This document shows positions 11,013-51,732 of a stretch of 64,000 nt of DNA, piece after piece. The stretch's first letter is position 1. Every line of letters begins with the position of its first letter. Origin of the DNA: Pseudoalteromonas rubra (GTDB lineage Bacteria; Pseudomonadota; Gammaproteobacteria; Enterobacterales; Alteromonadaceae); assembly GCF_001482385.1 (NCBI RefSeq), contig NZ_CP013611.1:1860001-1924000 (forward strand), given 5' to 3'. Made by a program: the position numbers and the translations under genes. The notes under the pieces were generated by a model. That model searched no databases and was not told the DNA's origin. It saw only the letters and a list, made by a program, of their open reading frames with translations.

Positions 11013-11039
11013 ACTTTAATAAAGCCTGTTTAACCGTGG

Positions 11040-35676: not shown

Positions 35677-35727
35677 GCGCCGTTATCACCGTATCAAACC
35701 CAATGACACGCGTGATAACGCGCCTTT
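35677..35727. terminator. Possible bidirectional terminator
   Basis: GTTATCAC (35682-35689) and GTGATAAC (35712-35719), extended by GCGC on both sides with one bulge, lie between two convergent genes and partly inside the 3' end of the minus-strand glycosyltransferase gene. A short CTTT follows. Confidence 0.4.
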
Positions 35728-36618
35728 CGTCAGGCTCAGCAAGAGATAAGCACCCCAGTGGAATGGCTTGGCACGTGCTACCGGGTTGGCCAGCAAGCGC
35801 AGTGCATGGCCATACAAACGATGCCTGATATTACGCTTGGCCAAATCACAGATATGCGTGGCTACGTATTTATGCGCCATAGCAATGTGCGTGACCTCGC
35901 CATCTTTAACGGCTGTCAGCAAACGTTCCGCAAAAGGACACAGCTGCGTTGGTGGCGCTTTATCGCAAACACTGCCTGGTGCTCCCAGAAAATAAAAGCT
36001 CTCAATGGCCGGTGAGTATGCAATGCGCGATTTCAAGGCCGCCTGAACATAAAAGCTCTGATCTTCACCCATCCATTCCCCCACAGGGAAGCAACCCAAT
36101 TGATTAAAGGCCCCCTTCTCAACCACCAGACTCGACATGGTAAAAGGCAAGTCCCCATTTGCCGCTACCTCAAAATAATTGTCCATTTCATACCCTTCTG
36201 GTGTCCAATCAGTCAGAGCGATTTTAGCGTCAATGTATTCACCACTGTCGAGCACTTTCTGATAGCGAGAGGCGAACAGCCCGGCCGCAGGAAAACGTTG
36301 GATCAATTCTGCCATGCGTGCCAAAAAGAAAGGACTCCAGGTGTCGTCGGCATCAAGAAACGCCACGTAATCTGAGGAGGCCGCTTTAACGCCATTATTG
36401 CGTGCGACAGAGACCCCCTGATTGGCCTGACGTACCAGTCGCAGGTTTGGCAGACCCAGATCAAGCACTTTTTGCGGGCTGTCATCGGAAGAGCCATCGT
36501 CTACTACTATGATTTCCGCAGCCTGATGATGCTGGGCATGAACACTTTGCAGTGCCCGGACGATGCACCCGCTCTTATTGTACAGTGGAATAACGACTGT
36601 GAATTGAATCGTATTCAT
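35686..36618 (-). CDS. Family 2 glycosyltransferase (exopolysaccharide locus)
   Basis: GT-A fold transferase of 310 residues adding one sugar to a lipid-linked repeat unit. VVIPLYNKSGCI opens the domain, with VVDDGSSDDS and the metal-binding LDADDTW. The ATG at 36618 has GGAG 9 nt before it and lies inside the 3' end of the pyruvyl transferase gene (44-nt overlap), so the genes are co-transcribed. The donor and linkage cannot be read. It is the last gene of its unit. Confidence 0.9.
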   Translation of the reverse strand: MNTIQFTVVIPLYNKSGCIVRALQSVHAQHHQAAEIIVVDDGSSDDSPQKVLDLGLPNLRLVRQANQGVSVARNNGVKAASSDYVAFLDADDTWSPFFLARMAELIQRFPAAGLFASRYQKVLDSGEYIDAKIALTDWTPEGYEMDNYFEVAANGDLPFTMSSLVVEKGAFNQLGCFPVGEWMGEDQSFYVQAALKSRIAYSPAIESFYFLGAPGSVCDKAPPTQLCPFAERLLTAVKDGEVTHIAMAHKYVATHICDLAKRNIRHRLYGHALRLLANPVARAKPFHWGAYLLLSLTKGALSRVSLGLIR

Positions 36619-37714
36619 AGTTTTCGCTCCAGTTAGAAAGAGATAAGGTGATAGCCTGGTTAAGGGCCAGACTGGGGGCATCGAAACCTCGCTCCAGGCC
36701 GCGATACATCACCCGAAATAAGGTATCCGGACTAAATTCATTGGCGTCAAACGCATACTGCGGCGGCAAGCCAATTTGTTCACACCACTGTGTACACTTG
36801 GCGTGATATTGCAGACTGATAAACGGTGTTTGTGTCATGTAGGCGTATATTTGCGCATGCAGCCGCATGCCAATCATCACCCGGAACATCGCCATGCACT
36901 GTAAGATACTTGCTGGGTTCGGCACATAGCTGACCCGTTTCACATTCACATACTCTGGCAGGCGGGCGACTATTTTGTCGTGAATGGCTCTGTCGCTGCC
37001 TTTTGTTTGATCATTCAAGTCAACCAGATAAATGTCTTCATTAGTAAAGCTCCACGCTGTCGTAATGAGGTCAACCGCTTTCGCAATACGACGCAACTCG
37101 TTGTGTTCATTCACATTGCCAAACGCATCAATAGACTGTGGGCAAAAATTAAATGCAACCCCCTGGCGCTTAACCGGATTCAATTTACCTCGTAGGTGAT
37201 GCAGTAAGGAAGGCGCAAGATCAAACGTGTGCTTCAGGTTCGCATGAGGCGCCAGCGCCTCGGCAATGTCATAACTTTGTTTATCACGTAAGGTAACCAG
37301 CCCACATTCATACAGAAACTTTTTACACTGTATTTCATCATCCAGGGTTTTGAATGGCTCAATACCAACACCCAGTGCCATGGACTGCTTACGACCACTC
37401 AGTGCCATCATATGACGTTTAAGGGCAATGTCGCGGCTACTATGTAGCACAGAGCCACCACCAAAAATAACGTGCTGTGCCCCATACGCATGGCGGTAAT
37501 GCCATAACCGCTGGTGACCACGAAACAGCAGTGGTAGCTGTCCAACGCAGCCAATCTGATTCACCAGTGCGTCGTCGTCAGGGGCACTGACAGTGATCTG
37601 TTCACTGCCCAGAAAATGCCGGGCTCCCATTGCTGATGCCAGCATAAGCGCATCGTCACCGCTGTTGCGCATGCCGTAGTAACCGACAATATATGCTTTG
37701 TTTTTTGCTGCCAT
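36575..37714 (-). CDS. Polysaccharide pyruvyl transferase family protein
   Basis: A 379-residue protein of the CsaB/WcaK type that places ketal-linked pyruvate on polysaccharide sugars and so adds negative charge. Typical features are GYYGMRNSGDDALM near the N-terminus, FGGGSVLH, the C-terminal GMRLHAQIYA and FISLQYHAKC. The start is supported by the N-terminal fit to the family. A sigma-54-type promoter lies 36 bp upstream. Confidence 0.92.
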   Translation of the reverse strand: MAAKNKAYIVGYYGMRNSGDDALMLASAMGARHFLGSEQITVSAPDDDALVNQIGCVGQLPLLFRGHQRLWHYRHAYGAQHVIFGGGSVLHSSRDIALKRHMMALSGRKQSMALGVGIEPFKTLDDEIQCKKFLYECGLVTLRDKQSYDIAEALAPHANLKHTFDLAPSLLHHLRGKLNPVKRQGVAFNFCPQSIDAFGNVNEHNELRRIAKAVDLITTAWSFTNEDIYLVDLNDQTKGSDRAIHDKIVARLPEYVNVKRVSYVPNPASILQCMAMFRVMIGMRLHAQIYAYMTQTPFISLQYHAKCTQWCEQIGLPPQYAFDANEFSPDTLFRVMYRGLERGFDAPSLALNQAITLSLSNWSENYEYDSIHSRYSTVQ

Positions 37715-37749
37715 TGTGCTGCCTCGTTAAGTTAATATACTTACGGTAT

Positions 37750-37765
37750 TGCAGCTCTCATGCCA
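37750..37765 (-). promoter_or_regulatory. Sigma-54 promoter before pyruvyl transferase gene
   Basis: Minus-strand TGGCATGAGAGCTGCA: -24 TGGCAT, -12 CTGCA with correct spacing (GG and GC ten bases apart). It ends 36 bp before the start codon. A TTGCA half-site lies about 63 bp upstream (37828). Confidence 0.7.
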
Positions 37766-37879
37766 GAATTCAAACCACTGTTTTTAAATGATTTATTGAA
37801 AATTCAAGCCAGTTACAAATGCTTAATTTGCAAAAGGCGATGCGTTGTCCGGAGTGAATTATCAAAATAAAAAAGCGGG

Positions 37880-37914
37880 TTTGCAAAAAGAAAGCCACCG
37901 ACTAAGCGGTGGCT
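37880..37914 (-). terminator. Terminator after sugar transferase gene
   Basis: On the minus strand AGCCACCG-CTTAGT-CGGTGGCT is followed by TTCTTTTT. It separates the sugar transferase unit from the pyruvyl transferase unit. Confidence 0.8.
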
Positions 37915-37961
37915 CTACATGAAAAGACAGGTGTGATTCACAGTGTGCTCCCTCGATGAAT

Positions 37962-38645
37962 TTAGTAGGCTCCTTTGGCACCAATGACGCAAGGAATGGT
38001 CTTGAGCAAAATGGTGACATCGTTCAGCGCACTTTGCTCACTGATATAGCGCTTATCCAATTGCACCTGCTGTGCAAAAGTCGTGTCGGCCCGGCCGGTG
38101 ACCTGCCACAAGCCAGTCAGCCCCTGCTCACTGTTAAGACGACCTAACTCATGTGGTTGGTATGCGTGTACTTCTTTCTCCAGCGCAGGGCGCGGACCTA
38201 TCAACAGCATGTCTCCCCGTACCACATTCATCAACTGGGGTAACTCATCGATTGAGTACTTACGGATAAAAGCGCCAATACGGGTAATACGCGGATCATT
38301 GCGATATTTAGCGCACACACCTTCACGGTCGCTTTGTGCCGGGTCCGGATTACGAAAACGCGGATCCTCTGGCATGTACATAGAACGAAACTTATACATA
38401 GTAAAACGGCGGCCCAGTTTACCGACCCGAACCTGCTTATATACACATGGGCCCTGACTTTCCAGCTTGATCAGCGCTATAAGCACCAATAAAAATGGGC
38501 TTAGTAACAGTAATCCGGTGATCGCAGCCAGGCGCTGCAAACAGGCTGGAATACCATGGTGACGACCATCTGTTTTGGTTAGCTCAGAAGCAGATGATGA
38601 CATTGTATTGTACTGATTTTCTGTGGTTTTTTTGATGCTATACAT
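37962..38645 (-). CDS. Priming sugar transferase (short WcaJ/PglC type)
   Basis: Phosphoglycosyl transferase that starts repeat-unit synthesis on undecaprenyl phosphate. The 227 residues have one membrane segment (about 40-62) and the full catalytic block: KFRSMY, DPRITRIGAF, SIDELPQLMNVVRGDM, IGPRPAL and GLTGLWQVTGR. It lacks the long multi-helix N-terminus of WbaP. ATG at 38645 follows GAGG and lies 2 nt from the stop of the WecG-like gene. Confidence 0.93.
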   Translation of the reverse strand: MYSIKKTTENQYNTMSSSASELTKTDGRHHGIPACLQRLAAITGLLLLSPFLLVLIALIKLESQGPCVYKQVRVGKLGRRFTMYKFRSMYMPEDPRFRNPDPAQSDREGVCAKYRNDPRITRIGAFIRKYSIDELPQLMNVVRGDMLLIGPRPALEKEVHAYQPHELGRLNSEQGLTGLWQVTGRADTTFAQQVQLDKRYISEQSALNDVTILLKTIPCVIGAKGAY

Positions 38646-38647
38646 GA

Positions 38648-39904
38648 TTAAAGTCCTCGCAAAGCTTGTTGTAAAACATAAACACGGAATAGGAAAATCG
38701 GGTTACCGAGCACATAGCGGTTAAACTTGGCTTTGGGCTCCTGGATAAGACGCCAAACCCATTCAAGGCCCAGCTCTCTCATCCACATGGGGGCACGCGC
38801 TATTTTGCCGGAGAAAAAATCGAATAAGCCGCCGACCGCCAGCGCACACTGCGCCTGGAGTTTATGTTTGTTGTTATCTATCCAGAGTTCCTGACGAGGC
38901 GAGCCCAATGCGACCAGTACAATATCGGCACCACTTTGATTGATACAGTCGACAACATGTTCATCATCATCGAAGTAACCGTGGTGCGCACCCGCGATAC
39001 GCAACCCCGGGTATTGTTGACTCAAGTTGGCAGCGGCTTTGTGTGCAACACCGGGCTGTGCACCGAGTAAAAACAGAGAACGTTGATTTTCAGCAGCAGC
39101 CTGACAAAGCCCGGGCAGCATGTCGGTGCCATTGTTGTTGTCGGCCAGGTTCATGCCCGCTTTTCGGGCCGCGATCCGCATGCCCGACCCATCAATAAAG
39201 TTCCGGTCACTGTTTTGCAGAACTTGATAAAGCTGTGCGTTACCAGCCGATAAATTAACCGAGTTAACATTGATGTAGTAAGCCGACTGGCACCCTTGTG
39301 TATCTGTTTCCGCCGAGTCTTTTACGACCCAATCCACTGCAACCTGCATACGCGTGTTGCTAAACGGAATTCCAAACAATTCACTGCTCGACGGGGTACT
39401 TGTGGGTTTGCGATACAAACCCAGACACAAGAGCACCTTAAATACTAATAAAATATCTGCAAACAAAGACTGGTTGTGCTGCGCATGGAGCAACGCGAGC
39501 GGCTTATCCACACTGAGCCCGGTCAGGCTATGTAACCAGAGACAATCGAATAGTCCAGGCTGACCACAGGGTGAGTGTAAACGCGCCACCCGGGGCATGC
39601 TCACGCCGTCACGTAGCAGCGGGTTACCAACAAACCGAATACGACCACTCACAACATTTAACAGCGCTGCGCTGCGCTTGAACACACCAACCTGCCAGCC
39701 CAACAAAGACACAGGCTGAGCACTCACGTCTATCCAGGTCTGGCGTCTCAGTGGCGCTTTGAAACAGATTAGCGCAGCCAGAGAATTGAAGCAGAATAAT
39801 GGCACTAAAACGGTAGCTAACACCAATGCAGCGCTGACTCTGAGTGCTTTACGTGCACCTGACTCACTTGCGTGTGATGAATGTTTGGTTAAGTACGTAG
39901 ACAT
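38648..39904 (-). CDS. WecG/TagA/CpsF glycosyltransferase fused to degenerate sugar-transferase domain
   Basis: A 418-residue protein. The C-terminal part (about 190-400) is a WecG/TagA/CpsF transferase: YYINVNSVNL, DGSGMRIAARKAG, FLLGAQPGVA, GAHHGYFDDDE, VALGSPRQELWI, AVGGLFDFFSGKIARAP. The N-terminal 170 residues have one membrane helix and echoes of the neighbouring priming transferase (SGRIRFVGNPLLRDG for RGDMLLIGPRPAL; then a GLxxLW-like stretch and DILLVFKVLLCL). The KFRSM and DELPQL catalytic block is missing, so that half is probably structural. Operon with the intact sugar transferase. Confidence 0.88.
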   Translation of the reverse strand: MSTYLTKHSSHASESGARKALRVSAALVLATVLVPLFCFNSLAALICFKAPLRRQTWIDVSAQPVSLLGWQVGVFKRSAALLNVVSGRIRFVGNPLLRDGVSMPRVARLHSPCGQPGLFDCLWLHSLTGLSVDKPLALLHAQHNQSLFADILLVFKVLLCLGLYRKPTSTPSSSELFGIPFSNTRMQVAVDWVVKDSAETDTQGCQSAYYINVNSVNLSAGNAQLYQVLQNSDRNFIDGSGMRIAARKAGMNLADNNNGTDMLPGLCQAAAENQRSLFLLGAQPGVAHKAAANLSQQYPGLRIAGAHHGYFDDDEHVVDCINQSGADIVLVALGSPRQELWIDNNKHKLQAQCALAVGGLFDFFSGKIARAPMWMRELGLEWVWRLIQEPKAKFNRYVLGNPIFLFRVYVLQQALRGL

Positions 39905-39942
39905 CGCTTCCTCCGCTGTTCAGTTGATTACACCGAATATAT

Positions 39943-39958
39943 AGCGAGGACCATGCCA
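39943..39958 (-). promoter_or_regulatory. Sigma-54 promoter before WecG-fusion gene
   Basis: Minus-strand TGGCATGGTCCTCGCT: -24 TGGCA, -12 TCGCT, correct spacing, 38 bp before the start codon. A degenerate LuxO-like site lies about 67 bp upstream. Confidence 0.65.
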
Positions 39959-40024
39959 AAATTAAACCTTTGATTTAATATGAATTTAAAATTTTTCTGG
40001 GGTTCTATTCTCAGCTAAATTGCA

Positions 40025-40037
40025 TTGCATTTTGAGA
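40025..40037. promoter_or_regulatory. Degenerate LuxO-box-like site
   Basis: TTGCATTTTGAGA matches 10 of 13 positions of TTGCAWWWTGCAA. An overlapping TTGCA at 40020 strengthens it. Likely activator site for the promoter at 39943-39958. Confidence 0.4.
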
Positions 40038-40070
40038 ATTTTCTTATTTTGAAAAGCGTCGATGTGACGC

Positions 40071-40820: not shown

Positions 40821-40851
40821 GCCGACCTCCTTTATCTTCCATCTCTCATGA

Positions 40852-40867
40852 AGCAAGTATTGCACCG
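40852..40867 (-). promoter_or_regulatory. Sigma-54 promoter before the GT-A gene
   Basis: Minus-strand CGGTGCAATACTTGCT: -24 GG kept, -12 TTGCT perfect, correct spacing, 32 bp before the start codon. Confidence 0.6.
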
Positions 40868-40936
40868 TTTATAAAAAACACCGCATAGGCTGGTATTTCA
40901 TGCTGACGGTTATTCGCTGTCGGTCGCATTTTTTGT

Positions 40937-40966
40937 TTGCAAAGCGCAATGCAGTGCAATTTGCAA
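40937..40966. promoter_or_regulatory. Paired LuxO-box-like sites between divergent promoters
   Basis: TTGCAAAGCGCAA (40937-40949) and GTGCAATTTGCAA (40954-40966) match TTGCAWWWTGCAA at 11 and 12 of 13 positions. They lie about 70 bp from the leftward promoter and 61 bp from the rightward one, so both could share the bound activator. Confidence 0.65.
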
Positions 40967-41026
40967 AAAATCCCTACCCTACAGACATTTAAAAATTAAA
41001 CAACTGATAATTAAGTAATTTATTCT

Positions 41027-41042
41027 TGGCACGTTTCATGAA
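41027..41042 (+). promoter_or_regulatory. Sigma-54 promoter before LruC-domain gene
   Basis: TGGCACGTTTCATGAA: the -24 element TGGCACG is perfect. The -12 element is degenerate (ATGA for TTGC). It ends 44 bp before the start codon. Confidence 0.5.
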
Positions 41043-41086
41043 ATATCCAGCACAGAAGTACAAGATTGACTTAAATTGGAGCGAAT

Positions 41087-42712
41087 ATGATGAAACTGCT
41101 TAACCCACTTTACCCGTTAATGGCCTCCGGGCTAATATCCTTTGCAGCCTCTGCTGTCGAACTGATTGATGGCCAATATGTTTGGCAATTTCAGTCGGGC
41201 GAAGCCTGGCCTACAGGCTATAACCAGTCCACCGGTAAACCCGACTCACTAATCTATGCACGTGACGAATATAGTTCGGAGTTCTTCCAGCGGATCCAAA
41301 ACGCACTGCCTGAAGCGAGAGTTAATGAGGCCTTCATCACAGGTGACGAAGGTTCTACCATACACCTGGTTGAAGACGCCGAAGTGTTTGTGACTTTCAT
41401 TCATGAAGGCGCGGGTTATAAAAACTCATTCGGCTACTTTACCTTCGACCCGGACAATCCGCCCCAGACACCCGAAGAGGTGCGTGAAACCATCATCTTT
41501 CCGAACCTCAGCTACCCACACCTGACCAATGGCCACCGACTGAGTCTTGGTGAGTTTCCGGCTGGTACCAGCATTGGCTTTTTTATTGCGGCAAACGGCT
41601 TTTGGTATTACACCGGTGTAAAACCATTTCAGATCCCTTATTACTATTCATTGTCTGATCTCAACCCGGAAAGCAACGCAACCTTACGTCAGCACTGTGT
41701 ATTGCTGCTGGATGAAGAGGAACAAGAGGTCGTCATCGGCTTCGAAGACTTACCCCGTACCTGGGGAGATAACGACTTTAATGATGCCGTCTTCAGCGTA
41801 AAAAGCTCACCCGCATCTGCCATCTCAGCGCTCAACCTGACGGTGATGCCAGAGCAAAACGACAGCGATGCCGACGGCATTGAAGACGAACAGGACGAAT
41901 TTCCTGACGACTTTAACCGGGCCTACAGTCAATATTATCCGAGCGCAGAAGGGGTCACGACACTCGCATTCGAAGATAACTGGCCTGCTCGTGGCGACCA
42001 CGACATGAATGACCTGGTTGTTAAACAACGCATTCGCTTTACCTACAATGCAGACAACCAGATCAGCGGATTCATCATTTATGGTTGGATCACGGCGCGC
42101 GGTGCGGCCTACCAAAATGGCTTTGGTCTGCGCCTGATGAACAGTGACCCGGCTTTGATAAAACAAGCCACCCTGACTGTAGATGGCACAAATTATGACA
42201 AAGAGGCAGAAAGTGGACAAACTAACGCCGTGATATCGGTGTGGAGCAACACCCATACTTTTACCACCACAAATCAGCCTGGCCAGTGCCAGCACTTTAA
42301 TACGGTGATGACCTGCGACTACTTTGAACCTGTGCCATACACCTTAGATGTCAGCTTTGAACAAAACCTGGGTGCACTGAGCATTAACGATTTCGATTTC
42401 TTCCTGTACAGAACACAAGATCGTTCACTGGAAATCCACATGGCAGATTACCCGCCAACAGACAAGTTTGATGCTAACCGCTTTGGCACAGCCGATGATA
42501 CCTCAGATGCGCAAGCGGGCCGCTACTTCAGAACAGCCGAGAACCTGCCTTGGGCCTTGATGATCAGTAATGACTGGCACTACCCCAGAGAGTATCTCGA
42601 CGTGATTTGGGCGTATCCTGCCTACGAAACCTGGGTGGAAAGTAATGGCGAGCAGGCCCAGGACTGGTTTATGACCAACGAACGCACCACCCACACTTTC
42701 AGCGCACATTAA
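41087..42712 (+). CDS. LruC-domain secreted protein
   Basis: A 541-residue exported protein (signal peptide about 1-22). It has a DUF4114-like segment (VVIGFEDLPRTWGDNDFNDAVF, near 210-230) and, after an acidic calcium-type spacer (NDSDADGIEDEQDEFP), a LruC/DUF4842 domain beginning FEDNWPARGDHDMNDLVV. LruC proteins are surface or matrix-associated; the Asp-rich turns suggest calcium binding. It sits in the exopolysaccharide locus, upstream of a small lipoprotein by 12 nt, and may be a matrix protein. Role inferred from context. Confidence 0.85.
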   Translation: MMKLLNPLYPLMASGLISFAASAVELIDGQYVWQFQSGEAWPTGYNQSTGKPDSLIYARDEYSSEFFQRIQNALPEARVNEAFITGDEGSTIHLVEDAEVFVTFIHEGAGYKNSFGYFTFDPDNPPQTPEEVRETIIFPNLSYPHLTNGHRLSLGEFPAGTSIGFFIAANGFWYYTGVKPFQIPYYYSLSDLNPESNATLRQHCVLLLDEEEQEVVIGFEDLPRTWGDNDFNDAVFSVKSSPASAISALNLTVMPEQNDSDADGIEDEQDEFPDDFNRAYSQYYPSAEGVTTLAFEDNWPARGDHDMNDLVVKQRIRFTYNADNQISGFIIYGWITARGAAYQNGFGLRLMNSDPALIKQATLTVDGTNYDKEAESGQTNAVISVWSNTHTFTTTNQPGQCQHFNTVMTCDYFEPVPYTLDVSFEQNLGALSINDFDFFLYRTQDRSLEIHMADYPPTDKFDANRFGTADDTSDAQAGRYFRTAENLPWALMISNDWHYPREYLDVIWAYPAYETWVESNGEQAQDWFMTNERTTHTFSAH

Positions 42713-42724
42713 GAGGATACGACC

Positions 42725-43342
42725 ATGAATACATTGACTAAATTTTCAGCTTTAACTTTGGTTTGTTTCACTTTAAGTGGCTGCGGAGGAGGCGGTGGTG
42801 AAGGTGGCTCAACAGGCACTTCAACCAGCAGCGGTAATACGGCCACAGCACCGGCAAATAACACCAGCACACCTGCATCTACTAGCACCACACAGAGTCA
42901 AAGTCAGACGCAGAACGACGCAGCAACACCTGTCGAGGCAACAGAGCCTGAACCAAGTTACGAGCCGGACCCGACATTGCTGGACAGCCAGGCTGAAACC
43001 TCTAACGATTTGCATGTCAAAGCGGATTTTAACTTCAGTACCAGCAAAACAGTGACCTTAGATCTGGGTGGCCAGGATGTGCTTGGAGACAGTCTGGCTA
43101 ATAAGATGGTAAAAGTCTATGCCATGCATGAGGTGGTTGAAAGCTATGAGGACGAGGCGATGGCCGACAAAGCCCTGCTGGCAACGGCGCGCTTTAACAA
43201 CGCCGGACAAATCACCATGACACTGGATATTCCAGTCAATTACAAAACCTTGCTGATCAGCGTAGATGGTATGTTGCAGAGCAATCATTTACTCACCGAA
43301 CTGAATATGCAGGCCACCACGGTAGCACATCAGTTCAATTAA
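42725..43342 (+). CDS. Gly/Ser/Thr-rich lipoprotein
   Basis: A 205-residue lipoprotein with lipobox LSGC (Cys20) followed by GGGGGEGG and a Ser/Thr/Gln/Ala-rich linker to about residue 75. A beta-rich domain follows (about 95-205) with SKTVTLDLGGQ and ITMTLDIPVNYKTLLISVDG. The GC-repeat-like linker is common to surface lipoproteins of marine gammaproteobacteria. It is co-transcribed with the LruC-domain gene and may anchor it or bind matrix; I know no closer family. Confidence 0.75.
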   Translation: MNTLTKFSALTLVCFTLSGCGGGGGEGGSTGTSTSSGNTATAPANNTSTPASTSTTQSQSQTQNDAATPVEATEPEPSYEPDPTLLDSQAETSNDLHVKADFNFSTSKTVTLDLGGQDVLGDSLANKMVKVYAMHEVVESYEDEAMADKALLATARFNNAGQITMTLDIPVNYKTLLISVDGMLQSNHLLTELNMQATTVAHQFN

Positions 43343-43361
43343 ACAATGACAGTTCCTCGCT

Positions 43362-43400
43362 AAACCGCCTGCTCCTCTCTCATCGCAGGCGGTTTTATCT
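43362..43400 (+). terminator. Rho-independent terminator
   Basis: AAACCGCCTGC (43362-43372) and GCAGGCGGTTT (43385-43395), 12-nt loop, then TTTT. It ends the LruC/lipoprotein unit. Confidence 0.85.
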
Positions 43401-44989: not shown

Positions 44990-45016
44990 TCCACTCAAGC
45001 ATGCTGTCTGTGCAGA

Positions 45017-45029
45017 TTGCAAATTGCAA
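45017..45029. promoter_or_regulatory. LuxO-box match, site 1
   Basis: TTGCAAATTGCAA matches TTGCAWWWTGCAA at every position. It starts 21 bp before site 2, two helical turns, so two activator dimers would sit on one DNA face. Confidence 0.75.
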
Positions 45030-45037
45030 AATCGCCA

Positions 45038-45050
45038 TTGCAAAATGCAA
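45038..45050. promoter_or_regulatory. LuxO-box match, site 2
   Basis: TTGCAAAATGCAA is also an exact match to the consensus. It lies about 141 bp upstream of the sigma-54-type promoter at 45191. A further CTGCAAAC half-site follows at 45052. Confidence 0.75.
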
Positions 45051-45190
45051 TCTGCAAACACTTCCTGTTACTAAACTTGCTCCATCTGTTGTCTTCAAAT
45101 TGAGCTCAGTCACCTCAAGAAAACTGTTAAAACCATATAAAACAAACAATTAAAATCATTTCCCGGTTTATTTTTTGTGCTCACCCACCT

Positions 45191-45206
45191 TGGTACAAAT
45201 TTTGGT
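45191..45206 (+). promoter_or_regulatory. Sigma-54 promoter before flippase gene
   Basis: TGGTACAAATTTTGGT: -24 TGGTAC and -12 TTGG, correct spacing, 36 bp before the flippase start. Confidence 0.6.
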
Positions 45207-45241
45207 TAGTAAAGGTATCTGATAAAAAAGAGCGCGATGCC

Positions 45242-46495
45242 ATGACTAACCCATCCAGCACAATGCGGACCCTGCTCAGCAACACGTCTTACCTGATTGG
45301 TACAGAGGTGGTTGCCAAAGCATCCAGGCTGTTAAGCATTATGGCCATGGCCGCTTGCTTGTCAGCCGCAGAGTATGGCGCTGCTATGCTGGCACTGACC
45401 ATTCATGAAGTAATGAGGCTGTTAATGCGCTCTGGCGCTGGCACGCAGATCATTCGCGCCAACGATCAGGAATTACCGGCTTACTTGAAAAATGGGCTAA
45501 TTTTGCAATGGCTCTTATGTAGCTCGTTGTGTGTGGTGCAAATTATTGTGGCGTTGACCACCATCTGGCTGTTTCCTGGGCAGGATATCGCGCTGCCCGT
45601 CAGCCTTATGGCACTGTCTTATCTGGTTTTTCCATTTATGTGCATTCGCGGCTACTTAATGCAGCGCCGCAACCAGCTGGGGCTATTTGGCTTGCTTAGC
45701 AGCATAGGTGTCATAGTCGAGAACCTGGTACTTGCCATCGCTCTATACCTGGGTGCTGGTCTGATGGCCATCGTGATTGGCAAGTGGGCATTTACTTTGG
45801 TCTGGCTTGTTTGCTTCTCATTCGTCAAGTCAACACCGATCACAGGGACATTTAGTAAGCCTGTGTTTGTTCGTCTGCTTCGCGCCTCCACTCAGATGGT
45901 CGGTAGCGACATTCTGCGCTCATTGCGCGTCAACATGGATATGTTTCTGGGAGCCCGCCTATTGAGTCCGGAACTGTTCGGTTTATATAGCTTTGCCAAG
46001 AGCGTTGGAGTCGGGCTAGCAATATCACTGACGCAAGCCTATACCACTGCACTCTACCCCTATGTGTGTAAACTGAAAAACAGCAATGTGTTTGACTCAA
46101 AACACAAACAACAACTTATTGTTATAACAACGGTTATATCGACCATTTTTATTATGCAGGCGTTGCTGGTTCCCTGGTATGTACCAGTGTTGTTCACCGA
46201 AAACTGGCAAGAGAGCTTCATAACAGCCAGCCTGCTGTGCTTAATTGCCACCAGCACAACCTGGACAGACAGCTACGCCGTGATACAGAGAGCAAATGGC
46301 CGCTTCACTCGAGAATGCCAACTGAATGCTTACTGTTTACTGATTTCATTGACCGGGCTGTTAATGATACAGCCAGATCAACCCACTTTACTTGCCGCCG
46401 TACTGGTTAGTTGCAGCGTCTTATGGTTGCTCTTCCCATTGGCAGACATTGCGCTGAAACATTGTCACGTCAGCACAGCAAAATCTTCTTCATGA
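45242..46495 (+). CDS. Oligosaccharide flippase (Wzx-like)
   Basis: Polytopic inner-membrane protein of 417 residues with about 12 hydrophobic segments in the MATE-like MOP-superfamily pattern (opening LLSNTSYLIGTEVVAKASRL, the usual Wzx start). It would move lipid-linked repeat units to the periplasmic face. It heads a unit with a glycosyltransferase 13 nt downstream. The ribosome site is weak. Confidence 0.88.
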   Translation: MTNPSSTMRTLLSNTSYLIGTEVVAKASRLLSIMAMAACLSAAEYGAAMLALTIHEVMRLLMRSGAGTQIIRANDQELPAYLKNGLILQWLLCSSLCVVQIIVALTTIWLFPGQDIALPVSLMALSYLVFPFMCIRGYLMQRRNQLGLFGLLSSIGVIVENLVLAIALYLGAGLMAIVIGKWAFTLVWLVCFSFVKSTPITGTFSKPVFVRLLRASTQMVGSDILRSLRVNMDMFLGARLLSPELFGLYSFAKSVGVGLAISLTQAYTTALYPYVCKLKNSNVFDSKHKQQLIVITTVISTIFIMQALLVPWYVPVLFTENWQESFITASLLCLIATSTTWTDSYAVIQRANGRFTRECQLNAYCLLISLTGLLMIQPDQPTLLAAVLVSCSVLWLLFPLADIALKHCHVSTAKSSS

Positions 46496-46508
46496 TCCGG
46501 AGCCCATT

Positions 46509-47531
46509 ATGACTAACTATGTAATTAACTCAAAACCCGTTGTCAGTATCATCATCCCTATGTACAACGTTGAAAAGTATATCGATAAATGTATCTGCTC
46601 AGTACTTAATCAGACTTATCAGAATTTTGAAGTGATCTGTGTAGATGATGGCTGCAGCGACAACACACTCAGTTACCTGAGAGACTATAAAGACCACCGT
46701 ATCCACATCATTCGTCAGCAAAATCGTGGCTTATCCGGGGCCCGTAATACGGGGATACGAAATGCACGAGGCGTTTATATCGCTTTGCTGGATGCCGATG
46801 ACTATTGGGCAGTTAATAAACTTGAAAAACACGTTGCCCACTTAAATCGTAATCCTCATGTTGATGTCAGCTACTGCCCTTCGCTGTTTGTTGATGATGA
46901 CAACAAACAGCTGGGCATTGGCCAGTTTCCAAAGTTAGATAACATAGATGCTAAGACCATTTTTTGTCGTAACCCCGTTGGTAATGGCTCAGCACCGGTG
47001 GTTCGTGCTTCTATACTGGAAAAAGTAGCGTTTCACGACGATACCCGCAGCTGGAGACAGTACTTTGATGAAAACCTGAGACAGTCCGAAGACATAGAAA
47101 TGTGGCTGCGCCTGGCGCTAAATGCTCAGGCGATCTTCGCCGGGATCCCTGAACCCTTAACCTTTTATCGTGTTAATGCCAGCGGCCTGTCCGCCAACTT
47201 GAAAAAGCAATATCAGAGCTGGGAAACGGCGGTCAATAAACATCGCCGTAGCCATGCGAAGTTTTTCAGACAGTGTGGGTCGCTTGCCCGCGCTTATCAG
47301 CTCAGATACCTGAGTCGTCGTGCCGTACAATCGCGCAATGCATTTGCCGCAATAAAACTGATACATCAGGCACTATTCACTGATATCCGCATTCTATTAG
47401 ATGAGCCTGGCCGCACAGCACTCACCTGGTGTTGTGCCCTGACCAGCCTATTGCCAAAATCGCTGTACAATCGCGCAGAAAAACTGGCGATGCGCACTGT
47501 GGGCCAGTCTAACAAACATCCTGTAGGCTAA
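46509..47531 (+). CDS. Family 2 glycosyltransferase
   Basis: A 340-residue GT-A enzyme for repeat-unit assembly. The opening VSIIIPMYNVEKYIDKCI, VCVDDGCSDNTL, QQNRGLSGARNTGI and the metal site LLDADDYW are all canonical. ED in SEDIEMWLRLA is the likely catalytic acid region. The C-terminal 90 residues are basic and helical and may lie on the membrane. It follows the flippase by 13 nt with a GGAG site. Confidence 0.92.
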   Translation: MTNYVINSKPVVSIIIPMYNVEKYIDKCICSVLNQTYQNFEVICVDDGCSDNTLSYLRDYKDHRIHIIRQQNRGLSGARNTGIRNARGVYIALLDADDYWAVNKLEKHVAHLNRNPHVDVSYCPSLFVDDDNKQLGIGQFPKLDNIDAKTIFCRNPVGNGSAPVVRASILEKVAFHDDTRSWRQYFDENLRQSEDIEMWLRLALNAQAIFAGIPEPLTFYRVNASGLSANLKKQYQSWETAVNKHRRSHAKFFRQCGSLARAYQLRYLSRRAVQSRNAFAAIKLIHQALFTDIRILLDEPGRTALTWCCALTSLLPKSLYNRAEKLAMRTVGQSNKHPVG

Positions 47532-47599
47532 CCTCTCACTCCCGGGCCTACGCATTTATCTGCTTGTCGCAGATACTGCACCTCGCACCTGAGGCCCTT

Positions 47600-47624
47600 A
47601 AGCCAGCATTTGCTGGCTTCTTTT
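47600..47624 (+). terminator. Terminator after glycosyltransferase gene
   Basis: AAGCCAGCA (47600-47608), 2-nt loop, TGCTGGCTT (47611-47619), followed by a T-rich run. Confidence 0.85.
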
Positions 47625-47634
47625 CATTTTGAAA

Positions 47635-47645
47635 TTGCTTTGCAA
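47635..47645. promoter_or_regulatory. Contracted LuxO-box-like site
   Basis: TTGCTTTGCAA keeps both TTGC/GCAA halves but is two bases shorter than the consensus. It lies about 70 bp upstream of the promoter at 47715. Confidence 0.35.
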
Positions 47646-47714
47646 AATACAAAAAGCCACGCAGAAAAACACAAAAAAAACCTTAAGCGTCTGATTGTTA
47701 TAAATTTTAAAAAT

Positions 47715-47730
47715 TGGCTCAAATTGTGCT
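47715..47730 (+). promoter_or_regulatory. Sigma-54 promoter before export operon
   Basis: TGGCTCAAATTGTGCT: -24 TGGC, -12 GTGCT, correct GG/GC spacing, 49 bp before the start of the export gene. Confidence 0.7.
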
Positions 47731-47779
47731 CATATCTTGTTAAGACCACTTAGAGAGACAGACCTCCAAGGAGCACATT

Positions 47780-49048
47780 ATGAGACCAACCACTGCAATC
47801 ACAGCCCTGCTGACCCGCACTTGTGCGCTCGTACTGTGTGTCCTTGGCTCAGGGTGCTCACTCAGCCCGGACTATAATGACGAGGACTTTTACGGCATGC
47901 CGCATGCGGTTGGCACGCAATTTGGACAATCCAATTCTGTGTTTGCCTCTCGCCTGACCTGCACCGATGCCGATGACTTTGCCGCGGCAGCGAATTATCG
48001 GGTTGATCAACCAATCCCTTTGTCTGCACCCGCTGTCACTCCAGTAGACCATCGTTCACCAGATTTGCAGGGCTCTGCACCGCTCAGCCCGGGAGATCTG
48101 ATACAGGTCAATATGGAATACGGAGAAGGCTTTAATGGCGATTATGTCATTAACAACTCAGGGACATTAGACTTACCTGTCATTGAGCCTGTTTATGCCG
48201 CAGGCCTGACAACAGCAGCACTGGCTAAAAAGGTGGAACTTGCTCTGATCCGTGCCAAAATATTTCGTGCTCAAACGCTGGATGTCACCATAAAAATTAA
48301 AAACTGGGCTGCAATCGAAGTTCCAGTATCCGGGGCGGTTTTTTCACCAGGACGCGTCACAATTAACGCTAAAATCCCAGCTCAATTACTTGAAGAGCAA
48401 ATTGCAGCTTCTGGCGACCATTCGAAACAACGCCTGTTGTCTGAGGCTATACGTGCTGCCGCAGGTGTGCGCCCCGACGCCAAATTGGATCAGGTGATCC
48501 TGGTTCGTCAAGGCTGGCGTATCGAAGCAGATATGAGTGGTATATTAACTGGCCAACCTGTTACAGATCACGTGCTCATTGCAGGCGACCAAGTGATCGT
48601 GCCCAGCACGGGGTGTTTTCAACCTAACCTGGTGCGCCCTTCACAAATTACGCCAAAAGGCTTTCGGGTCTTTATGTCTAACCTGATTGACTCGTCAATG
48701 AGTAACGCTAATGCCGCAATAGGTCGTTTTTCAAGTAACCTGCCATATGGCACCCGTTTATTACAGGCCGCGATTTCAGCGAACTGTGTAGGTGGTAAAG
48801 AATATACCAATGCCCCTCGTCGCGTCGTGCTGGTCAGCAATCATCCACTGACAGGCCAAACCCAGGTCGTCGAGCGCTCTGTAGAAGAGCTGATGCGTAT
48901 GTCTTATCGCGACCATGTTAACCCGTATGTTATGCCGAATGATGCGATAGCCTGCTATGATTCAGATATCACTAACTTGCGTGATATCGCCAAAACCCTG
49001 CTCGATATCGTGGCACCTTTCTCTTTGCTGAGTAAGGAGGATTCATGA
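47780..49048 (+). CDS. Polysaccharide export protein (Wza/OPX family)
   Basis: A 422-residue envelope protein with a signal peptide and a likely lipidated Cys in LGSGC. The poly_export domain begins LSPGDLIQVNMEYGEGFNGDYVINNSGTLDLPVI, followed by SLBB-type segments (VPVSGAVFSPGRVTI). The C-terminal 150 residues, with two Cys, differ from E. coli Wza and may form the outer-membrane portion. It heads the operon exporter, co-polymerase and polymerase; the stop overlaps the next ATG by 4 nt. Confidence 0.9.
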   Translation: MRPTTAITALLTRTCALVLCVLGSGCSLSPDYNDEDFYGMPHAVGTQFGQSNSVFASRLTCTDADDFAAAANYRVDQPIPLSAPAVTPVDHRSPDLQGSAPLSPGDLIQVNMEYGEGFNGDYVINNSGTLDLPVIEPVYAAGLTTAALAKKVELALIRAKIFRAQTLDVTIKIKNWAAIEVPVSGAVFSPGRVTINAKIPAQLLEEQIAASGDHSKQRLLSEAIRAAAGVRPDAKLDQVILVRQGWRIEADMSGILTGQPVTDHVLIAGDQVIVPSTGCFQPNLVRPSQITPKGFRVFMSNLIDSSMSNANAAIGRFSSNLPYGTRLLQAAISANCVGGKEYTNAPRRVVLVSNHPLTGQTQVVERSVEELMRMSYRDHVNPYVMPNDAIACYDSDITNLRDIAKTLLDIVAPFSLLSKEDS

Positions 49049-50436
49049 ACACGCAACTTCAGGTAACCACGCCGTACTCACGGTTTAGATCTGCGATTTA
49101 TCGCACCCTGCATAAGCCTTACCTGGTCACCTGTCTGGTTAGCTATGCCGTTATTTTGTTACTGGTCTTTGCCTACCTGCAACAACCCGCAAAATACCGT
49201 AGTGACCTGGATATGGTACTACCCGGAACCGGTGCAAACAGTAATGTCTCTCTGGATGAGGTTGGTCAGGTCGTGTCTTCAACCACCGCACCGTTTGGTA
49301 AAGGCTATAACCCCAAGGTCAATTACAAAGAAATGCTGATGAGTAAAAACCTGATCGAAAACGCCGCCAAATCCATGGGTATGACTGCCGCAGCATTTGG
49401 CCGCCCTAAAGTGCGCCTGACTGAGCAAACATCCATTTTGAAAATCGAGATCACTGGTGCCAGCCCACGGATCGCCGAAAACAAAGCCTGGGCCCTGTAC
49501 GACGCTTTGCAAAACCAGCTTGATTACCTCAGGGCCGACGAAGTAAAACGCCGTGACGCCAGCATCAAGTCTGTCTTAGATCAGTACAGAGAAAGACTCA
49601 ACTACACACGGAACAACATCACCGATTTCCAGCAACGGTCATTACTGATCAGTCGGGACCAACTTGACCAGCAAATGCGCACTCTCTCCAATTTGAAAGA
49701 GCAGGTAGCCATTGTTAAAGCTGAGATTGGGCGTTCCGAATATTATGTCAGTCAGCTCAGTGTCGACTTGGGGGTCTCCCCCTCTATGGCTGGTCAGGCG
49801 TTTGTACTGCAATCGGATGGCGAATTCAGGGCCTACCTGTCTGAGCTGGATAACAGTGCTGCGCAACTGAGCGAGTACCGTTCACGCTGGGACGATGGTC
49901 ACCCAATGGTGAAAGCGGAACTAGCCCGTTTTGACCAATCAAAAGTGGCACTCATAAACCGTTCGGTGGGACTGGTAGGCATCAATGCCGCCCATGCCTT
50001 TCATACCACAGATCTGGCCAACAACCCCAATCGGGCGCAATTGTTTGCCGACCTGATCAGCGCCTTCGCCGCTAAAAAAGGGTCTGAAGCAAAACTGATT
50101 GAACTGGAAAATGCGGTTCAGTTGTTAAACGAAAAACTGAAAGTTTATGCCCGGGAAGCCGCAGAACTTGAACGCCTAGAACGTGAGTTTGATCTGGCAA
50201 AAGCCGTTTTCACCTCAGCAGTCGCAAGACTCGAAGCTAGCAAGGCGGACGTCTTCGCCTCATACCCGGTTATTCAATTGATGTCACCACCATCACTGCC
50301 GGTTAACTCCTATTCCCCGAAAAAGTCCATTGCCATTGCGGCAGCACTGGCCGCGATGATCTTCTTATCCATGGGGATATTGATGATCAACAAGCGTCGG
50401 GTGATTATCTCCGCCTTGATGAAGCAACCAGACTAA
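49045..50436 (+). CDS. Wzz/GumC-type polysaccharide co-polymerase
   Basis: Inner-membrane chain-length and export partner, 463 residues. Membrane helices lie at about 26-46 and 427-448, flanking a periplasmic domain with a long coiled coil (about 165-400). No C-terminal tyrosine-kinase domain is attached and none is nearby, so this is a PCP without BY-kinase. Overlap of 4 nt and an AAGGAGG site inside the upstream gene indicate coupling to the exporter. Confidence 0.9.
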   Translation: MNTQLQVTTPYSRFRSAIYRTLHKPYLVTCLVSYAVILLLVFAYLQQPAKYRSDLDMVLPGTGANSNVSLDEVGQVVSSTTAPFGKGYNPKVNYKEMLMSKNLIENAAKSMGMTAAAFGRPKVRLTEQTSILKIEITGASPRIAENKAWALYDALQNQLDYLRADEVKRRDASIKSVLDQYRERLNYTRNNITDFQQRSLLISRDQLDQQMRTLSNLKEQVAIVKAEIGRSEYYVSQLSVDLGVSPSMAGQAFVLQSDGEFRAYLSELDNSAAQLSEYRSRWDDGHPMVKAELARFDQSKVALINRSVGLVGINAAHAFHTTDLANNPNRAQLFADLISAFAAKKGSEAKLIELENAVQLLNEKLKVYAREAAELERLEREFDLAKAVFTSAVARLEASKADVFASYPVIQLMSPPSLPVNSYSPKKSIAIAAALAAMIFLSMGILMINKRRVIISALMKQPD

Positions 50437-50448
50437 CCGGAGGCAAGC

Positions 50449-51732
50449 ATGTTATTCACTGCCTACTTACCGTTTAAGGAGAAACGCTTCATCAGCACAG
50501 AAGAAAAGCTGGTCTGGGCTGGGCTAGTGCTGACCTACCCCGCCTTTTTGCTGGGTATGCTGTATGTCATGGGCTCCGTCATCGGCTGGCTGATTTTTAT
50601 GGTCGTACTAATGCGTTGTTACCTGAACTTACGCGCGAAGCCCCCTCCACTCTCACCAATCATCTGGATGTGGATCATCGCGATGTTACTCATGCTGCTG
50701 GCTTTACTCATCGCCCATAGCGAGTGGTCTCTGGGCGTAGGAAAAACCATAAAGTCCACCATTGGCTGGATGAAAGGCTGGGCGTTACTCGCGATTTTCC
50801 CTGTTATTGCAGCCTTGGCAAAAATTCGCAAAGAAGTGGTGATCCGCGGCGTATGTATAATCGCCATTCATACCCTGATCTTTTCATTCATCTCTATCGC
50901 ATTTTACATCGTGAAACTACCCGGCGATATCTTCCTGTCGCCGTTAAAAGTTATTGGCGGACCCGGGGAAACGTTTTTCATGGTCAGTCTTTATGGCATT
51001 AATCCCGAAACGGGCGCCGGGCGCTGGCGTTTCTTTACCCCCTGGGCACCGGCAGCCGGCTTTATGGCCTGCATATATCTGGTGTTTTGCTTGCAGGAAA
51101 AAAATGCGCAGCTGCGCCGCTGGGCCATTACCGGCTGCTGGGCTATGTTATTGCTGTCACAATCCCGTGCCGGTATCGCCATTTTCATTATGCTGTTTCC
51201 ACTGGTGCTGTTCAGTGATAAATTTAAAGAGCCCTGGATGCTGTTACTGCTTGGTATTACTGTACCCATCATATTGCTACTCGGTGAACCCATCTACAAT
51301 TCGCTTATGGATTCCTACGAAGCGGTGAAACAGCAACGTCCCGGCTCAACGCGGGTGCGTAAAGCGCTGGCCAACATTGCCATTCAGCGCTGGCAGGCAG
51401 AAGCGCCCATCTGGGGACATGGCATTGTTGAGCGCGGGCCTAAAATGGTGGAATTTATGCCGATTGGCTCGCACCACAGCTGGTACGGGTTGTTGTTTGT
51501 TAAAGGCATAGTTGGTGCGGTTGCGCTGGCTGTCCCTATGCTTGTTTCGAGTGTCTATTTACTGTGGGCATCGCAAGACTCAAAAACTGCCCAGACAGCA
51601 CTTTGCCTGATGGCCGTGCTAGTCTGCTACAGCTTTTTTGAAAACCTGGAGATCCTGTCGTTCCTCTACTGGCCTGCGCTACTGTGGTTTGGCTTTGCGT
51701 TTAGTAACAAGCGTTCATCAATGGCAATGTAA
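50449..51732 (+). CDS. O-antigen polymerase/ligase family protein (Wzy-like)
   Basis: Membrane protein of 427 residues with about 11 hydrophobic segments and a large periplasmic loop (about 290-345). The loop ends in the family motif region GHGIVERGP...PIGSHHSWYG, with the His residues typical of Wzy_C/WaaL proteins. It polymerises repeat units. A GGAGG site lies before the ATG. Its last 67 nt overlap the convergent NYN gene, an unusual antisense overlap. Confidence 0.88.
   Translation: MLFTAYLPFKEKRFISTEEKLVWAGLVLTYPAFLLGMLYVMGSVIGWLIFMVVLMRCYLNLRAKPPPLSPIIWMWIIAMLLMLLALLIAHSEWSLGVGKTIKSTIGWMKGWALLAIFPVIAALAKIRKEVVIRGVCIIAIHTLIFSFISIAFYIVKLPGDIFLSPLKVIGGPGETFFMVSLYGINPETGAGRWRFFTPWAPAAGFMACIYLVFCLQEKNAQLRRWAITGCWAMLLLSQSRAGIAIFIMLFPLVLFSDKFKEPWMLLLLGITVPIILLLGEPIYNSLMDSYEAVKQQRPGSTRVRKALANIAIQRWQAEAPIWGHGIVERGPKMVEFMPIGSHHSWYGLLFVKGIVGAVALAVPMLVSSVYLLWASQDSKTAQTALCLMAVLVCYSFFENLEILSFLYWPALLWFGFAFSNKRSSMAM

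Follow-up and report, generated by a model that had tools for sequence, protein, structure and literature searches.

The exopolysaccharide (EPS) locus in the window, a 64,000-nucleotide stretch of the Pseudoalteromonas rubra genome, is divided into several units on both strands and carries among them the gene of an enhancer-binding protein (bEBP; 43490–44989, plus strand). The question it raises is whether this bEBP controls the units around it, and in answer to what signal. It is very probable, judging from sequence, that the bEBP activates the EPS units from LuxO-type enhancers via sigma-54. In the mechanism that we propose, the active phosphorylation state of the receiver would allow the protein to bind palindromic LuxO-type enhancers (TTTGCAnnnTGCAAA) lying ~58–64 bp upstream of -24/-12 elements, or 131–159 bp upstream at the flippase unit, and the bound protein would drive sigma-54 RNA polymerase at the five units pyruvyltransferase-GT2, WecG-sugar transferase, LruC-lipoprotein, flippase-GT2 and Wza-Wzc-Wzy, with a GT34-like gene as a probable, weakly driven sixth. 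The signal would most likely come from an H-NOX-type NO-sensing kinase, for which the H-NOX/kinase/NosR module on contig 2 is the candidate. The sites, their conservation, the clade and receiver type of the regulator and its linkage are read directly from the sequence; from these we infer binding, activation and the pairing with a kinase, including its sign. A sequence-only reading had already centred such a regulon, with sigma-54 promoters and LuxO-type enhancers, on the bEBP of the locus, and this proposal stands for five of the six units, in an arrangement that is kept in relatives.

A check of the window found all six -24/-12-like strings of that reading where it had placed them. On the minus strand, CTGGCATGAGAGCTGCAA (37749–37766) precedes the pyruvyltransferase-GT2 unit (36575–37714, 35686–36681), with a predicted enhancer, TTTGCAAAAGGCGAT, at 37827–37841 and a gap of 60 bp between the two. 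The WecG-sugar transferase unit (38648–39904, 37962–38645) is likewise preceded by TTGGCATGGTCCTCGCTA (39942–39959, minus strand) and by two predicted enhancers at 40024–40038 and 40041–40055, the nearest gap being 64 bp. A terminator-like hairpin between these two units (37891–37916, minus strand) supports their separation. The GT34-like gene, for which the ATG at 40820 is the more likely start, follows a weak element, ACGGTGCAATACTTGCTT (40851–40868, minus strand), and shares the predicted divergent enhancers at 40936–40950 and 40953–40967 with the LruC gene. The LruC-lipoprotein unit itself (41087–42712, 42725–43342) has TTGGCACGTTTCATGAAA at 41026–41043 on the plus strand, with a 58-bp gap and GA instead of GC at the -12 position.

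Further along the plus strand, the flippase-GT2 unit (45242–46495, 46509–47531) is preceded by TTGGTACAAATTTTGGTT (45190–45207), also lacking GC at -12, and by a predicted enhancer cluster (45009–45058) that includes two exact TTGCAWWWTGCAA sites at 45017–45029 and 45038–45050. The predicted enhancers of the Wza-Wzc-Wzy unit (47780–49048, 49045–50436, 50449–51732) lie at 47621–47635 and 47639–47653, directly 3' of a terminator-like hairpin (47600–47619), and are separated by 60 bp from TTGGCTCAAATTGTGCTC (47714–47731, plus strand). No scoring sigma-54 element was found for the regulator gene, which would not be under sigma-54/enhancer control in the rubra genome. A search for sigma-70 promoters gave 21 where 20.9 were expected.

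The regulator comprises a receiver (residues ~9–142), an AAA+ domain and a LuxO-type Fis HTH (~451–492). It is a sigma-54 enhancer-binding protein of the group I NtrC-like type, its REC, Sigma54_activat and Fis HTH domains all scoring above Pfam cut-offs. As the sequence-only reading had it, both the AAA+ domain and the HTH are LuxO-type, the HTH core reading SPSTLYRKIQ against SPSTIYRKLQ in LuxO. In this family the AAA+ loop is GAFSGA in place of GAFTGA, a variant that passages of two papers describe as compatible with activation (PMC4641369, PMC6615313). The receiver has a different affinity. Its best non-family relative, in a comparison that drew on neighbour proteins from the same loci, is a NosR/HnoD-like neighbour protein in all 31 members. 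Scores against NosR-like receivers are 106–135 bits, and no member exceeds 72 bits against those of LuxO. The NosR model (NF053512) aligns residues 9–142 only, at 165 bits, and since the receiver alone matches, a full-length NosR/HnoD-type response regulator (REC plus HD-GYP-like output) is rejected; the contig-2 NosR protein of the same genome passes this model (484 against 400 bits). By its sequence, the regulator is a hybrid of LuxO-type AAA+ and DNA-binding domains with a NosR/HnoD-type receiver.

Because the receiver is of this type, an NO-sensing kinase is the most likely input, and we lean modestly towards an NO input step on the strength of sequence comparisons. The evidence for it rests on linkage in other genera. 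An H-NOX gene is found near the regulator in 7 of 30 family loci and in none of 50 control loci. NosR/HnoD proteins, known from H-NOX and NosP networks, resemble the regulator in receiver type and differ in output, theirs being a degenerate HD-GYP domain and not a sigma-54 AAA+/HTH; 12 of the 30 relatives have a gene for a NosR-like protein close to the regulator, against 0 of 50 controls. In locus L036 the H-NOX, kinase and regulator frames are consecutive on one strand, with gaps of ~10 bp (8371–8961, 8972–9961, 9971–11500). The H-NOX link was absent from the sequence-only reading. If true, it would extend the H-NOX NO network, known mainly for control of c-di-GMP, to matrix genes transcribed directly through sigma-54.

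The strongest alternative, which we rate at somewhat below an even chance, is that the sigma-54 regulon is real and the input is not NO, another kinase driving the regulator and the H-NOX linkage of some genera being a local variant. It includes the regulon part of our preferred explanation, and the likelihoods given to the readings do not sum to 1. Such a kinase could resemble that of loci L032, L034 and L036, where the regulator has periplasmic-binding-protein genes nearby, together with a kinase belonging to one cluster (Pfam was applied to the L034 pair only); H-NOX occurs in L036 alone of these, L032 and L034 having this different sensor pair. Further, no H-NOX, linked-kinase or NosR-like cluster adjoins the regulator in the ten Pseudoalteromonas loci (the window and L009–L017). 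Against this alternative stand the NosR/HnoD-type receiver of every family member and the kinases themselves: the rubra genome's best match to the nine linked kinases is, by a wide margin, its H-NOX-adjacent kinase (279 bits, the next being 154), and its H-NOX/kinase/NosR module is on contig 2. Within the genus, H-NOX is present in all 24 regulator-bearing genomes, which represent few clades, and also in 51 of 84 without the regulator. The genome's own NosR and H-NOX proteins are 26–34% and 29–39% identical to the linked ones, and receiver alpha-1 similarity is barely higher within a locus than across loci (0.45 and 0.39).

A narrower form of the NO explanation, in which the H-NOX kinase would act on the bEBP directly and without a phosphorelay, is possible but on the doubtful side. 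Here the NosR/HnoD-type receiver would have been grafted onto a LuxO-type enhancer-binding machine, and the GAFSGA loop, together with the flippase -12 lacking GC, might make export the most tightly held step and the last to open. The conserved loop and the conserved non-GC -12 of the flippase would offer a natural system for studying the fit between a bEBP and the -12 region.

The enhancers might instead be read by another activator of the genome, the locus regulator controlling something else. The genome search did return 17 matches covering the AAA+ domain; the locus regulator is nevertheless the genome's best LuxO match (464 bits, the next scoring 392), the next three activators differ in the recognition helix, and the enhancer motif is found at the locus across relatives, so that we regard this as quite unlikely.

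We consider it very unlikely that the regulator is the equivalent of LuxO in quorum sensing, acting at low cell density downstream of a LuxU-like phosphorelay. The resemblance to LuxO of the Vibrio qrr promoters is close at the DNA: the sigma-54 mechanism is shared, the recognition helix is nearly identical, and the enhancer consensus given in a passage of PMC10162802, TTGCAWWWTGCAA, is the one matched exactly twice in the window. The two differ in receiver type, in the GAFSGA loop and in clade, and LuxO targets Qrr RNAs whereas the predicted targets here are EPS structural genes. LuxO identity (NF041946) is rejected at 464 bits against a cut-off of 800, which no protein of the rubra genome reaches; in the order, the model is passed in 11 of 197 genomes, all of family f21. 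Membership of the LuxO clade is also rejected, the 31 family members grouping in a single clade (SH-aLRT 99) that excludes the 11 LuxO proteins, in a quick tree whose fuller search is incomplete and which carries a long-branch warning for the rubra genome's own paralogues. The tree sampled 16 control proteins from 21 loci (L039–L059, of 50 control loci) and seven of nine LuxO-like loci, L150 and L157 being absent as no frame was picked up, and it used the truncated frames FAM_L023 and FAM_L038 as they are. The family clade also excludes nine LuxO-like proteins that are second copies in LuxO-bearing genomes; a tenth 'second copy' in the tree, L167, belongs to a genome in which no LuxO passes. 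Few EPS-gene matches were found around the nine, which are at most candidate SypG proteins. The description of the protein as a LuxO/SypG-like activator is not supported as it stands: the AAA+ and HTH domains are LuxO-type, and the model score, the separate clade and the receiver speak against it for the whole. What the comparison suggests is a single DNA box serving regulators whose input domains are quite unlike each other.

Another comparison is with SypG of Vibrio fischeri, which passages of PMC10162802 describe as a bEBP activating sigma-54 promoters of the syp polysaccharide locus, with the box TTCTCANNNTGMDWN. The rubra protein is likewise a bEBP of a polysaccharide locus with sigma-54 promoters, its activating role being predicted, and TTGCAWWWTGCAA enhancers lie upstream of those promoters, so that by sequence the box is of the LuxO/SypG type; its own receiver, unlike that of SypG, is NosR/HnoD-type. 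According to a passage of PMC12369376, the NO/HnoX-controlled kinase HahK feeds SypG through SypF or LuxU; the one linked kinase scanned here differs in having no attached receiver. PrsK/PrsR, of PEP-CTERM/exosortase EPS systems, offers a further parallel: PMC1569441 describes an NtrC-type regulator linked to EPS, and many intergenic regions in which a motif lies upstream of -24/-12 elements. PrsR identity (TIGR02915) is rejected for our regulator (360 against 502.6 bits), and its predicted targets are EPS genes and not PEP-CTERM proteins. The outcome is a testable wiring diagram for how a widespread marine bacterial group controls its EPS.

The arrangement can be recovered from relatives. Related loci were taken as the best 80 of a scan, the k-mer comparison covering 22 of 31 loci (the window and L009–L038). 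With the rubra clade held out, a search from random seeds rediscovered the LuxO box, the eight best listed, out of 60 seeds, being forms of TTT(t/g)CATTTTGCAA (both strands) and TTTGCAAAtTGcaAAA (given strand). The -24/-12 motif, refined from a seed, came out as TTGGCatantTntTGcaa. The seeded searches gave log-likelihood gains of 255 and 263 in the 83 EPS-locus regions, against 65 and 96 in 127 upstream regions of non-EPS genes in these loci. The exact TTGCAAATTGCAA is present in family loci L011, L031 and L036, and control loci L056 and L070 contain it too. In the listed alignments of the window with L009–L017, the elements at 37750, 39943, 41027, 45191 and 47715 are conserved in the rubra and luteoviolacea clades (the flippase element of L011 was seen separately). 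The one at 40852 is weak and is kept in the closest, rubra clade and not in the luteoviolacea clade, so that the earlier claim of -24/-12 elements at six units is upheld for five.

Across the family, many of whose loci retain the promoter-enhancer arrangement with shuffled gene order, pairs above hand-set thresholds (sigma-54 at least 11 bits, enhancer at least 9 bits upstream) precede WecG in 17 of 17 cases, LruC in 10/10, Pyv in 10/11, Wza in 14/15 and Wzx in 20/27, with GT34 (4/16), Wzy (2/3) and GT2 (1/6) following. None was found upstream of BacTr (0/5) or the regulator (0/28), and the background is 5 of 176 other genes of these loci and 9 of 473 in control loci. Of the 25 members scored, 24 have no GC at -12 in the flippase promoter. 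The near-constant spacing that had been claimed is seen within the rubra genome and is lost across the family, where gaps run from 48 to 118 bp with one at 161 bp; at the flippase, the gap to the best-scoring box is 131–162 bp in the rubra clade against 68–96 bp in the luteoviolacea clade. A helical phasing of the gaps (period ~11.25 bp, R 0.43, jitter p 0.0006, 50 de-duplicated promoters) is not relied on here, the best period exceeding that of B-DNA and the choice of enhancer being automatic.

Within the window, a generic -24/-12 matrix built from a consensus, applied to all positions of both strands, ranks 37750 first and 39943 fourth, with 41027 and 47715 tied at 16, 45191 at 108 and 40852 at 212. 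Matrices trained on 83 upstream regions from 22 relatives excluded the whole rubra clade; L013, L015, L017, L026 and L029 were also unused, and as most of these have close relatives inside the training set, held-out testing is limited. The best pairs are, in order, 39942- (64 bp), 41026+ (58 bp), 47714+ (60 bp), 47490- and 37749- (60 bp); 47490- is antisense within the GT2 gene and uses the 47639 box at 131 bp, so that with each box counted once the top four pairs in 64 kb are those at 37750, 39943, 41027 and 47715. The flippase element 45190+ is weak (8.9 bits, 131-bp gap) and 40851- the weakest of the six (5.5 bits). None of the 27 other upstream regions in the window exceeds both thresholds. 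The pairing lies beyond chance, as had been claimed: five pairs with gaps of 40–100 bp, the fifth being 37975+, antisense within the sugar-transferase gene, compare with a mean of 0.18 and a maximum of 2 in 200 block-wise dinucleotide shuffles, none of which reaches five. The claim fails for the 13-bp box by itself, which with at most two mismatches occurs 18 times in the window against 12.4 expected, a count reached by 7 of 100 shuffles and so not significant. That the elements are artefacts of chance or of the composition of AT-rich intergenic DNA is hardly credible, for all that this box is not enriched and two of the six strings score poorly, and it is refuted for 37750, 39943, 41027 and 47715 by the pair ranking, the shuffles and conservation across genera.

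Counts of the 13-bp site by itself are uninformative in the window. Three of 22 strict sigma-54 matches in the whole genome have an enhancer, two of them at the EPS locus and the third outside the window at C2:964635. Five of the 47 near-consensus enhancers in 5.91 Mb lie within 7.6 kb of the locus, and among the 42 places outside it only C2:964635 shows strong sigma-54 pairing. Seven further outside places have sigma-54 scores of 8.3–11.3 bits, the best being L204 (11.3 bits, gap 151, within a frame) and L205 (10.0 bits, gap 105). Upstream of a DUF642 gene lie two LuxO boxes (C1:4248788 and 4248847) that have no sigma-54 element of at least 8 bits. Genome-wide, with at most two mismatches allowed, the 13-bp box occurred 631 times and the reversed pattern 355 times, in a listing set aside as it shows no exact match although the window has two. 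L113, the sole match of its wider-regulon search, gains no support from the enhancer score (L135). A first such search of the genome had returned 14 matches, one of them at the locus. The gene downstream of the L104 match is presumably YceI-like.

The exopolysaccharide (EPS) locus carries, on its minus strand, genes for a GT2 protein, a pyruvyltransferase, an initiating sugar transferase and WecG-type and GT34-like glycosyltransferases, and, on its plus strand, genes for a LruC-domain protein, a small putative lipoprotein, a sigma-54 response regulator (43490-44989), a flippase, GT2, Wza, a Wzc-like chain-length protein and Wzy. The putative lipoprotein and the chain-length protein gave no Pfam matches. 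Terminator-like hairpins part some of the units (for example 37916-37891 and 47600-47619). From sequence comparison we conclude that the sigma-54 regulon at this locus is real and compact, and that it combines enhancers of the LuxO type with a hybrid regulator; a literature search that covered few subscription papers found no description of the locus or of the regulator family.

The six -24/-12-like strings of the sequence-only reading (37750, 39943, 40852, 41027, 45191 and 47715) are all present in the window. Motifs for scoring them were learnt from relatives, which makes the check less circular: the training set was 83 regions upstream of EPS-locus genes (the regulator gene among them) in 22 relatives, excluding the window and its closest relatives, L009-L011 (together the rubra clade). 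Expectation-maximisation from random seeds rediscovered the enhancer. When both strands were searched, the top eight of 60 seeds were variants of TTT(t/g)CATTTTGCAA; on the given strand they were variants of TTTGCAAAtTGcaAAA. Runs started from a chosen seed converged on TTTgCAaatTGcAAA as the enhancer and TTGGCatantTntTGcaa as the sigma-54 element, the latter not being first-ranked from random seeds in the 83 regions. TTGCAAA is the top over-represented intergenic 7-mer of 22 representative loci (121 occurrences against 29.9 expected, or 17.1 when scaled from controls). The reported UAS_LuxO is TTGCAWWWTGCAA, and a SypG motif is reported in the same paper (PMC10162802).

Scored with these matrices, the pairs of enhancer and sigma-54 element at 39943, 41027 and 47715 are the three best in the window and that at 37750 is fifth, which upholds part of the proposed set. 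The fourth, at 47490-47507 on the minus strand, is a good sigma-54 string lying antisense within the GT2 gene that uses the 47639 box at 131 bp, and is probably due to chance. Chance is a poor explanation of the pairs as a whole: at thresholds of 11 bits (sigma-54) and 9 bits (enhancer), with a gap of 40-100 bp, the window holds five, whereas 200 block shuffles averaged 0.18 and never exceeded 2. The last of the five, with a good string at 37975-37992 (plus strand) antisense in a gene, is probably spurious. In alignments the sigma-54 elements of five units are kept amid diverging flanks, whereas that at 40852 is kept in the rubra clade only.

The best 80 related loci comprise 30 family loci (L009-L038; best-segment identities 49-92%), most with EPS genes by tblastn, and 50 controls (46% or less), most without them. 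Exceptions are L029 and L036 (no EPS genes), L034 (a LruC piece only), a few controls with one or two scattered matches and L062 with four glycosyltransferase-type matches. At both thresholds, a pair lies upstream of WecG in 17/17 cases in the family loci, LruC in 10/10, Pyv in 10/11, Wza in 14/15, Wzx in 20/27, GT34 in 4/16, Wzy in 2/3, GT2 in 1/6, the NosR-like neighbour in 3/11 and H-NOX in 1/4, and upstream of neither the regulator itself (0/28) nor BacTr (0/5). The background is 5/176 for other genes of family loci, one of the five being a broken-off LruC frame in L009, and 9/473 for control loci. Gene order matches the window in the nine Pseudoalteromonas relatives; in most of the remaining 21 loci the visible order differs, L033 being one exception, and conservation of the pair is therefore not just inherited synteny.

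A whole-genome scan (5.91 Mb in three contigs, the window being G000:C1:1860001-1924000) found an enhancer at three of 22 strict sigma-54 matches, two at the EPS locus and one at C2:964635; those without include one upstream of a gene that, judged by eye, resembles flagellin genes. When one mismatch at most is allowed, an enhancer pattern occurs at 47 places, compared with 25 when the pattern is reversed, and five of the 47 lie no more than 7.6 kb from the EPS locus. The pair at C2:964635-964737 (L134; L136 8636-8738) scores 17.0 and 15.5 bits at a gap of 71 and is the only strong one that the search of this genome found besides those of the EPS locus. It precedes two adjacent genes, the first for a PhyH-like protein (match below cut-off) and the second for a GFO_IDH_MocA oxidoreductase, and is a possible extra regulon member. 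Two LuxO-type boxes 59 bp apart (C1:4248788 and 4248847; L183 3289-3362) lie upstream of a secreted-looking DUF642 protein, in a region with no scoring sigma-54 element.

The flippase promoter is unusual at -12. Among family members scoring at least 8.5 (sigma-54) and 9 (enhancer), window included, 24/25 lack GC there and 17/25 have TGA, against GC in 51/55 promoters of the other five classes, counts that are not independent since the sequences are related by descent. The non-GC form is found across several genera. Separately, a small protein (cluster c13, about 134-146 aa) occurs in 10 relatives (L018-L022, L025-L028, L038), most often immediately following the GT2 gene that lies downstream of the flippase; the one member searched had no Pfam or NCBIfam match.

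The window regulator is 91-92% identical to its counterparts, among the best 80, in two strains of Pseudoalteromonas rubra and in one Pseudoalteromonas sp. In a quick tree of 78 proteins, with three own paralogues on very long branches, the 31 family members form one clade (SH-aLRT 99). Outside it fall 11 LuxO (those over the LuxO cut-off), 7 LuxO-like proteins, 10 second copies, of which nine come from genomes that also carry LuxO, and 16 controls. The family loop reads GAFSGA in 30/31 and GSFSGA in one, against GAFTGA in all 47 other proteins. We take Thr86 of PspF to be the threonine of GAFTGA. The PspF T86S change is reported to lower affinity for the closed complex (PMC7229158), and GAFSGA to be compatible with activation (PMC4641369, PMC6615313). 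The recognition helix, SPSTLYRKIQ, nearly equals that of LuxO (SPSTIYRKLQ). Of six LuxO helix-3 residues reported as critical (PMC11407668), alignment by eye finds four identical and two (Ile425, Leu429) conservatively changed; at the position of LuxO Gly409 the window protein has Asp. The description of the activator as LuxO-like is supported for its AAA+ and HTH parts but not for the protein as a whole, which has a separate clade and a NosR/HnoD-like receiver. In L167 (5001-12001) the neighbours of Wza-, Wzc- and Wzy-like genes include a different LuxO-like protein, with GAFTGA and a receiver of the LuxO type, and a pair lies near 8215, in an arrangement parallel to the EPS locus.

For all 31 family receivers the closest non-family receiver is a NosR/HnoD-like neighbour protein (106-135 bits, against at most 72 for LuxO, 79 for controls and 82 for own paralogues), in a comparison drawn from the same loci, which may favour this result; the window locus has no such neighbour, yet its receiver scores 120 bits. 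Within the fetched flanks, H-NOX (PF07700, tested on one member) occurs in 7/30 family loci and a receiver-HD protein in 12/30, against 0/50 controls for each; a sensor kinase of one cluster occurs in nine family loci. A periplasmic-binding-protein gene occurs in L031, L032, L034 and L036, the last three also having a second-cluster kinase. The own genome has a single H-NOX gene (C2:679962-680441), beside a kinase and a protein over the NosR model cut-off, and a profile of the nine linked kinases ranks this kinase first (279 bits; next 154). Receiver type, H-NOX linkage, kinase match and co-occurrence with H-NOX in the genus make nitric oxide (NO) input to the regulator the leading hypothesis rather than a demonstration, its sign not being readable from sequence. 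Known systems include PrsR (PMC1569441), H-NOX pathways (PMC8738867), NosP-NosK-NosR (PMC12570481) and HnoX-HahK, reported to feed SypF/LuxU and SypG (PMC12369376).

In L036 a single strand carries consecutive frames for H-NOX, the kinase and the regulator, spaced about 10 bp apart, and a pair precedes H-NOX. This is a probable operon, and the regulator would then control itself. Pairs before the H-NOX operon or NosR-like gene in some relatives (L036 8371-8961, L028 6507, L030 6656) suggest feedback on the NO module. Across 108 genomes of the genus, H-NOX is present in 24/24 with the regulator and 51/84 without (Fisher 7e-5, uncorrected for descent). Genomes with a regulator at 67-70% identity (G023-G026, G028-G032, G037, G092, G104) have two or three H-NOX genes, and those at 91-100% and 71% have one each.
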